Source: Patescibacteria group bacterium | GTDB taxonomy: Bacteria; Patescibacteriota; Minisyncoccia; Phycocordibacterales; DATDWN01 | Length of the DNA stretch: 34,600 nucleotides | Assembly: GCA_013816135.1 (NCBI GenBank) | Contig: JACDEV010000008.1 | Location: 1 to 34,600, forward strand | Reading direction: 5' to 3' | Shown here: piece after piece, positions 1-1,809 of the stretch | How the letters are laid out: each line of letters begins with the position of its first letter | How positions within the stretch are numbered: the stretch's first letter is position 1 | Program-made: the position numbers and the translations under genes | Notes under the pieces: generated by a model | Told to the model about the DNA's origin: nothing | What the model saw: only the letters and a program-made list of their open reading frames with translations | Database searches by the model: none

Positions 1-195
1 TAAGAAATAGTCTCGACGCAAAGCGCCTCGGCATGGTATTTTTCCGCAATTTTGAAGGCATTTTTGAAATCGCACGCCAGCGTGCGGTCGGCAATGCGGA
101 AGTTCCTGTGCAAAAGCACAGAGAAAACGAAGTTTTCAGAACCAATCTTTTTTCTTTCGCTTTCAGCGAAAGGTTGAGCGTATTTTTCTTTGATT
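1..195 (-). pseudogene. Inverted partial copy of the serine recombinase 3' end (runs off the window)
   Basis: Reverse complement of ~1..185 matches 1526..1696 in long identical blocks (e.g. AAAAATACGCTCAAC, GAACTTCCGCATTGCCGACCGC, and the last ~54 nt), interrupted by different hairpin segments. No remaining recombinase sequence lies 5' of it before 221. Confidence 0.85.
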
Positions 196-220
196 GCCCA
201 AAAACTAATCTAAAAACAAT

Positions 221-1774
221 ATGGACAACATAAATTTACAAACCAAAAAGTTTTTCCTCTATGCCCGTAAATCCACGGACGAACCCGAAAGACAAGTTTT
301 GAGTATTGAAGCGCAAATTTTCGAGCTGAAGGAGTACGCACGAAAAGAAAATTTGCAGATCGTCCGTGAATTTGTGGAAAGCAAAACCGCCAAAGAGCCG
401 GGGCGAGAAATTTTTAATGAAATGGTGGCGGGCATAGAGAAAAACGAAGCCGAGGGAATTTTAGCGTGGCACCCCGACCGCCTTGCTCGCAATTCAATAG
501 ACGGCGGACGGATAATTTATTTGGTAGATACTGGGAAAATTACCACGCTAAAATTTCCCACTTTTTGGTTTGACTGCACACCGCAGGGAAAATTTATGTT
601 GTCCATTGCTTTTGGGCAATCAAAATACTATGTGGATAATCTTTCGGAAAATATACGGAGGGGTATTCGCCAGAAATTGCGCAATGGAATTTGGCCCGCT
701 TGGGCGCCACTTGGCTATGTGAACGACAAAAACGCCCGCTGTATCGTGGTTGATAAAGAAAAGGCGAAGTATATCAAGCGGGCATTTGAAATGTACTCTA
801 CTGGCGAATACCCCCTTGCTCAAATCCGAAAGATTATCAATTTCTTGGGCTTGGTTGGCAAGAAAGGCAAAATGCTTTCCGTCTCAAATTATCAATATAT
901 GCTCAAGAACAAAATCTATTTTGGAATGATTGAGTATAACGGCGAATTGTATGACGGAAAGCATGAACCGATTATTACAAAGAAACTCTTTGATTTATGC
1001 CAAGAAGTGATGGCGAACAAGAGCAAACCAAAATCACCGAAATTGAAACCTTATGTGTATAGAGGATTTTTCCGATGTGGCGAGTGCGGTTGTTTCATTA
1101 CCACCGAAACGCAAAAAGGTCATAATTATTTGCGATGTACGAAACGGAAAAATCCTTGTTCGCAAAGATACGCCAGAGAGGACGCCATCACTTCTCAAAT
1201 AAAAGAAGAAATCAAAAAAGTTTCTTTGTCTTCCGCTTGGGTCAATGCTTCAATTTCATATTTTGAAAAAGAGAAAATTAAAATTGCCCAAGCGGAAAGC
1301 TCTTTCGCCCAAAAAGCGAGAAATGAGCTTGTAGAGATAGAAACAAAACTAGATCGCTTGCTTGATTTGCAACTGGACGGCAATTTGTCGCAAGCGGAAT
1401 ATACCGCTAAAAAGTACAAGCTCATTCTCGCTAAAAAAGATTTGGAAGAAAAAATCTCCGCTTTTGGGCGAAAGAGCAATAATCGGTTCGAACTTGCCAT
1501 TGCCTTTCTAAAAGACGCCAACCAAGCCGAAAAATACGCTCAACAAGAAAATCCCGAACGGATTCGGGATTTTCTCAAAAAGATTGGTTCGAACTTCCGC
1601 ATTGCCGACCGCTCTTTGTTTTTGGATTTCAAAAATGCCTTTAAAATTGCGGAAAAATACCATGCCGAGGCGCTTTGCGTCGAGACTATTTCTTACGACT
1701 TCACAAAAAGTGAAAATTGGCGGAGACGGAGAGATTCGAACTCTCGGTGCGTTTTAAAGCGCACGCCTCTTTAG
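221..1774 (+). CDS. Large serine site-specific recombinase (resolvase domain, recombinase domain, zinc ribbon)
   Basis: N-terminal YARKSTDEPERQVLSIEAQ, LAWHPDRLARN, zinc-ribbon FRCGECGCFITTETQKGHNYLRCTKRKNPCSQ, then a coiled coil. Confidence 0.95.
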   Translation: MDNINLQTKKFFLYARKSTDEPERQVLSIEAQIFELKEYARKENLQIVREFVESKTAKEPGREIFNEMVAGIEKNEAEGILAWHPDRLARNSIDGGRIIYLVDTGKITTLKFPTFWFDCTPQGKFMLSIAFGQSKYYVDNLSENIRRGIRQKLRNGIWPAWAPLGYVNDKNARCIVVDKEKAKYIKRAFEMYSTGEYPLAQIRKIINFLGLVGKKGKMLSVSNYQYMLKNKIYFGMIEYNGELYDGKHEPIITKKLFDLCQEVMANKSKPKSPKLKPYVYRGFFRCGECGCFITTETQKGHNYLRCTKRKNPCSQRYAREDAITSQIKEEIKKVSLSSAWVNASISYFEKEKIKIAQAESSFAQKARNELVEIETKLDRLLDLQLDGNLSQAEYTAKKYKLILAKKDLEEKISAFGRKSNNRFELAIAFLKDANQAEKYAQQENPERIRDFLKKIGSNFRIADRSLFLDFKNAFKIAEKYHAEALCVETISYDFTKSENWRRRRDSNSRCVLKRTPL

Positions 1775-1809
1775 CAAAGAGGTACATTAGACCACTCTGA
1801 CACGTCTCC
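1718..1809 (-). tRNA. tRNA-Ser(GCU) with long variable arm, CCA encoded
   Basis: Reverse complement GGAGACG...CCTCT-TTGCTAA-AGAGG...GTGCG/CGCAC variable arm...GAGAG-TTCGAAT-CTCTC...CGTCTCC-G-CCA. Confidence 0.95.

Follow-up and report, generated by a model that had tools for sequence, protein, structure and literature searches.

Why should two inverted copies of the 3' end of one recombinase gene, alike over their flanks, differ by perfect hairpins, and do so even within coding DNA? The question is raised by the window, the 34,600-nt stretch of a Patescibacteria genome (789 kb) analyzed here, which begins at a contig edge. An earlier note had described five hairpins that distinguish the two copies and proposed either template switching or mobile mini-hairpins as their source. 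The features needed below are the following.

221 to 1774, forward strand: large serine recombinase gene (Pfam Resolvase, Recombinase and Zn_ribbon_recom).
1718 to 1809, reverse strand: tRNA-Ser(GCT) (ARAGORN), attB side of the integration junction, with a TTCGAA T-loop motif downstream of the core as in relatives.
1591 to 1723, forward strand: X, right inverted repeat, the last ∼45 codons of the recombinase (inverted-repeat match).
1 to 188, reverse strand: X', second copy of the recombinase 3' end, inverted and truncated by the contig edge (inverted-repeat match).
189 to 237, reverse strand: continuation of X', pieces matching window positions 590 to 625 (complement of the start codon region; inverted repeat pairs I2 and I7).
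1546 to 1575, forward strand: hp0, coding hairpin with a 13-bp stem and loop CGGA, codons ENPERIRDF; same place, other sequences and covariation in relatives.
154 to 172, reverse strand: hp1, at the position homologous to hp0, stem 8, loop 3; other stems in relatives.
123 to 137, reverse strand: hp2, first of a double hairpin splitting GGTT/CGAAC, stem 6, loop 3.
106 to 121, reverse strand: hp3, second of the double hairpin, stem 6, loop 4.
71 to 86, reverse strand: hp5, CGCACGC-TG-GCGTGCG, in place of a 12-nt block.

The recombinase exceeds the curated cut-offs of PF00239, PF07508 and PF13408, the domain set of large serine recombinases/integrases. In an NCBIfam search its best match was CcrB, far under the cut-off of that family; a PDB search returned two resolvase-type chains only, and plasmid relatives reached at most 29% identity among the matches listed. 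The 3' end of the gene overlaps tRNA-Ser(GCT) in antisense, and X terminates in the core TGGCGG (1718-1723). X pairs with positions 1-105 as far as 1695, beyond which the partner is cut by the contig edge; where complete, the inverted repeats bracketing the recombinase are ∼130 bp long and contain the gene's own last ∼45 codons. The minus strand of X' begins within the complement of the recombinase start and, because up to position 237 it has pieces matching 590-625, X' looks like an internally deleted recombinase; it is no gene end in use. Judged from its sequence, the window carries the tRNA-proximal end of a mobile element integrated at tRNA-Ser. The tRNA side alone of its junctions is present, and the second half-site (P', described below) and the cargo lie beyond the contig edge. 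A second, partial tRNA-Ser copy (TTTAGCAAAGAGGTACATTAG ... CACTCTGACACGTCTCCA) is found at 1840-1969, split by ∼90 nt that have inverted repeats of their own.

All five hairpins are present in the window as the earlier note described them, and so are the 33-nt insertion after GGTTC, the 12-nt block replacement and the identical flanks, of which AAAAATACGCTCAAC and AAAAAGATTGGTTC recur exactly in inverted orientation (pairs I11 and I20). The hp5 palindrome reads CGCACGC-CA-GCGTGCG on the forward strand at 71-86, around the 72-85 given earlier, and its block also occurs in the gene copy of locus L059. hp0 (AGAAAATCCCGAA-CGGA-TTCGGGATTTTCT) has a 13-bp stem, and stems of at least 12 bp appeared in 0/200 dinucleotide shuffles of the same 198 nt. 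For the small hairpins the evidence from a single sequence is modest, because 6 of 200 shuffles of positions 1-237 reached the observed count of four stems of at least 6 bp (0.86 expected). Over the whole genome, a Markov model accounts for the number of coding stems of 7-8 bp (356 against 343 expected, 111 against 94), and we rejected a genome-wide insertion of hairpins on this ground; coding stems of at least 12 bp are in slight excess (6 against 0), one further such stem sitting at the same place in the genome's paralogous recombinase. On inspection for intrinsic terminators, neither hp0 nor any hairpin of X' was immediately followed by a T-run.

We collected ∼110 related loci from Patescibacteria and Elusimicrobia bins, and the layout is common to them. 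In most family members, down to ∼40% amino-acid identity, the gene is preceded by its own 3' end in inverted copy; the repeat is usually 120-134 bp long and terminates in a core whose sequence matches that at the 3' end of the adjacent tRNA gene (Ser commonest; also Gln, Asp, Glu, Arg, Ala, Thr, Gly, Leu, Val, and His). The median X/X' identity is 98.5% within a locus and 57% between loci, the within-locus value being biased upward because the repeats were found by similarity search. In a full-length comparison the own-locus copy was the best match in 54/63 cases, plus 2 ties; this comparison was used in place of one limited to aligned columns, whose result (17/63) is misleading. We infer from this identity that X and X' are homogenized within each locus. 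The copies in L040, L041, and L042 differ by ordinary divergence or end swaps. The recombinases of L037-L053 are mostly 87-94% identical and their bins bear the names of very different phyla, which points to recent transfer or misbinning. In L028 the recombinase module is flanked by a tRNA gene on either side, Phe and Leu.

The differences between X and X' are the next point of the argument. Over all loci, 58 of the 131 unmatched blocks of at least 12 nt are mostly perfect hairpin, with 1.75 expected, and hairpins account for 1949 of the 4907 bases in these blocks (81 expected), so that the earlier statement that the unlike blocks are perfect hairpins holds far beyond chance; the other 73 blocks are not mostly hairpin. 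The hairpins keep constant places near the inner repeat edge, hp0 among them in coding DNA, and hp1 occupies the place of hp0 in X'. The double hairpin hp2/hp3, which in the window splits GGTTCGAAC in X', splits GGTT/CGAAC likewise in X' of clade A, of several other CPR lineages, and of Elusimicrobia, with >20 distinct stem sequences for each of the two hairpins. In rows of fixed geometry, 98.2% of its positions are paired and the covariation score was reached in 0/500 shuffles; this count relied on equal-length rows only (alignment A3), because the MAFFT alignment A2 misplaced arms with unequal loops. In the clade of L023, L024, and L026 the double hairpin is in the gene and missing from X', and a further clade has a ∼78-nt block with hp0 in the gene only. 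The earlier claim that the changes are in frame survives in part: in 14 close loci X and X' differ in length by a multiple of 3, but L049 (+23) and L051 (+22) break this, so that the non-coding copy does not keep frame as a general rule, and the inverted copy of L039 contains a stop (by eye).

The coding hairpin hp0 gave the decisive test against a shuffled null. Among 48 CPR representatives at <90% identity, codons 432-456 contain a perfect stem of at least 9 bp in 28, against 0.45 expected from synonymous-codon permutation, and at other positions at most 4 members have such a stem. No stem of at least 9 bp was found at these codons in five relatives without the repeats. About 40 different hp0 sequences exist among the relatives, for example GGAAATCTTTTT-GAAC-AAAAAGATTTCC, GAACAAATGAAG-AAAAA-CTTCATTTGTTC, and AGCAACCTTTTT-GCT-AAAAAGGTTGCT, and in 13 window-type sequences 95.9% of cells are paired, with seven pairs changed on both sides (0/500 shuffles). 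Elusimicrobia genes are without hp0, and some have two other coding hairpins. These lie at gene nt ∼520-560 and ∼620-660, with stems up to 15 bp (L062-L066, L069, L071, L072, L077, L080, L081, and L083), and paired changes are seen in those of L071. Another coding hairpin with paired changes is located at codon ∼345 of the recombinase (for example TGATTTCTCATTTGG.. and TGATTTTTCATTTGG..; L040, L047, L038, L054, L055, L056, and L068).

Within hp0, the loop TCCT, reverse complement of the common AGGA, is found between identical stems in two lineages (L030 and L186); hp0 thereby shows loop inversion as well as the multi-base paired changes described above. Template switching is known to make and keep hairpins, and loop inversion is among its signatures (PMC8794818). 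Because stems keep pairing during turnover and loops invert, we concluded that arm copying (template switching) acts on these hairpins, as the earlier note had suggested as one of its two options. Its wider idea of a process working in coding DNA is borne out as turnover inside this coding sequence, but not as a general one, given the 7-8 bp coding stems at Markov level. Since their positions are conserved and their arms covary, the hairpins are inherited structures and not random insertions; they are old, position-conserved parts of the element ends that turn over by arm copying, and are neither chance nor mobile mini-hairpins. Their conservation in position across very diverged clades may need selection for function, with neutral arm copying alone insufficient.

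The relatives also supply the part of the element that the contig edge cuts off from the window. Beyond the left repeat copy they have the second half-site P' (TGT..TTGGACGAAGTTCGAAC..), which recurs inverted 2-6 kb away around cargo genes in the five loci read for it. The cargo genes, putative in that their names were assigned by eye from translations, are D-Ala-D-Ala ligase-like, carbamoyltransferase-like, nitroreductase-like, UbiA-like, and others. The layout is chromosome-[core]-P' cargo P'-[core]-X' recombinase X-[core]-tRNA. In L008/L045 (one record, G069:C18) the recombinase is reversed, so that X' is the copy next to the tRNA and the gene reads into P', and in L040 and L041 P'-like sequence is on both sides. 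A circular form would carry two inverted attP sites (X-core-P'), either of which could enter a tRNA gene, and the reversed recombinase and the two-sided P' are what such a circle would lead one to expect. The genome's own paralog on G000:C10 (L002, L181) appears reversed likewise, its inverted copy facing the tRNA. In integrated relatives the distance between the core and TTCGAA is 5 nt greater on the P' side than towards the tRNA (typically 16 against 11), and the offset is swapped in the reversed record; the count relies only on rows with exact TTCGAA on both sides, because the automatic motif scan also caught look-alike words. By sequence comparison the integrated relatives thus agree with serine integrases, in which the attP motif lies 5 bp farther from the core than that of attB (PMC3783163). 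Different hairpins end the P' repeats at the two cargo sides in L043 (464-2752) and L048 (559-2743), GCCAGTT-GAA-AACTGGC and ATTTTGC-TTT-GCAAAAT. We rejected hairpins at every P' inner end as a rule: they are present in L043 and L048, partly in L090, and absent in L110.

How the hairpins persist between arms that are otherwise kept alike is a matter of interpretation. Conversion or template switching between the long arms would keep X and X' alike, and the hairpins would persist since palindromic heterologies escape the homogenizing correction; in this way they may preserve a difference between the two ends and also bar conversion from reaching the start of the gene. From yeast work it is known that correction of heteroduplex DNA is poor at palindromic loops. 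Our literature search found no paper supporting an escape of palindromes from heteroduplex correction. The hairpins probably function as DNA-level heterologies that escape homogenization, and a role as end marks or barriers is possible. Taken as a whole, a tRNA-proximal element end with homogenized X and X', whose hairpins are turned over by arm copying and escape correction, is the best explanation we have, and we hold it with a confidence a little above even.

Four other readings of the same hairpins were weighed against it. That they are selected RNA structures, with hp1 to hp3 (or a single hairpin by the start codon) forming a leader through which translation or transcription of the recombinase is controlled, and with hp0 acting in the mRNA, would accord with the covariation and fixed geometry, with the conserved short lineage-specific loops (TTC/TTT, GCCA), and with the location of X' directly upstream of the start codon (∼9-18 nt in most loci of one clade). 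However, there is no sign of sense-RNA selection on hp0, because G.U-type and C.A-type mismatches are about equal (3 G.T/T.G and 4 C.A, small numbers). Rfam at gathering scores returned tRNA and tmRNA only in the window, with no family for the hairpins, and in six relatives tRNAs only, plus sub-threshold matches to tRNA complements or chance. The copy with the double hairpin also varies by clade, X' in clade A and Elusimicrobia and the gene in another, and we consider this reading unlikely.

Less credible again, in our estimate, is a role as DNA recombination signals, cruciform or single-stranded, that the recombinase or some host factor would recognize at the element ends. The hairpins do lie at the inner edges of both arms and are near-perfect in Watson-Crick pairing, they split or flank GGTTCGAAC, a motif that resembles the integrase's tRNA motif, and hairpins specific to one end are also found at the inner edge of some P' arms (L043, L048). 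Serine integrases, however, act on double-stranded DNA, and hairpins are missing at some P' ends (L110). Moreover, known serine integrases contact an attP of ∼50 bp (PMC3783163), and the hairpins, ∼130 bp away from the crossover core, lie beyond it.

The second option of the earlier note, mobile mini-hairpins or palindromic elements that insert in the element, is very improbable. The double hairpins do resemble clean insertions between identical flanks, and Rickettsia-type palindromic elements within genes are known, but each window hairpin is single copy in its genome (G000), stem sequences are unrelated between clades at fixed positions, and in a search of 384 genomes of the class the hp0 pattern lay inside the recombinase in every fetched locus except L193. 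In L193, a single case, the hp0 arm pattern is in an unrelated, apparently intergenic context. Chance, codon bias, or an assembly fold-back at the contig edge, with which the window does begin, is refuted here and deserves next to no credence: the synonymous permutation gave 0.45 against 28 (above), and the layout is found mid-contig in L043 (a 420-kb contig) and L110 (826 kb) and recurs across dozens of independent assemblies.

Returning to the proposed homogenized element end with correction-resistant hairpins, we compared it with known systems. The recombinase is like large serine integrases of the A118/phiC31/Bxb1 type in its Resolvase, Recombinase, and zinc-ribbon domains and in the 5-bp attP offset; unlike them, the element would have two inverted attP sites, uses the 3' end of many kinds of tRNA gene as attB, and has long, hairpin-tagged inverted repeats that include the integrase 3' end. 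By analogy, it may resemble the yeast 2-micron circle, which, as is generally known, has two unique segments between inverted repeats that hold recombination sites; the differences here are a serine recombinase, integration at tRNA genes, the lack of replication genes among the cargo modules read, and a circle that is itself predicted. Rickettsia palindromic elements and REP are likewise small palindromes, some in frame in genes, whereas here each hairpin is single copy and there is no repeated family at many sites. IS110-type bridge-RNA systems, in which the recombinase is guided by a structured RNA from the element end, offer no more than an analogy. As in template-switch evolution of hairpins in rRNA (PMC8794818) and yeast coding genes (PMC8604942), perfect stems are kept by paired changes and loops invert, but here this is concentrated at one conserved coding place in one mobile-element family. 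Perfect inverted repeats within protein-coding genes are shared with Nematomorpha mitochondria (PMC6649704), where they affect many genes and are far longer; here they occur in one gene family and are tied to inverted element ends.

Searches of the open-access literature found no description of the element layout, and nothing relevant on Patescibacteria serine recombinases at tRNA genes. Only tentatively, and with more doubt than belief, we suggest a new class of mobile element, in which two modules, one for the recombinase and one for cargo and both bounded by inverted ends of their own, would be joined at two inverted attP sites and target the T-loop end of many tRNA genes, with perfect hairpins, even coding ones, as correction-proof marks that keep homogenized ends distinct. 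The family brings together, in one natural system sampled many-fold, the concerted evolution of inverted repeats, template-switch evolution of hairpins, and coding constraint. It also shows how a mobile element of ultra-small bacteria (Patescibacteria, with Elusimicrobia bins) is constructed and directed to its sites, with inverted ends enclosing the cargo genes, tRNA genes as targets and an integrase motif that can be predicted.
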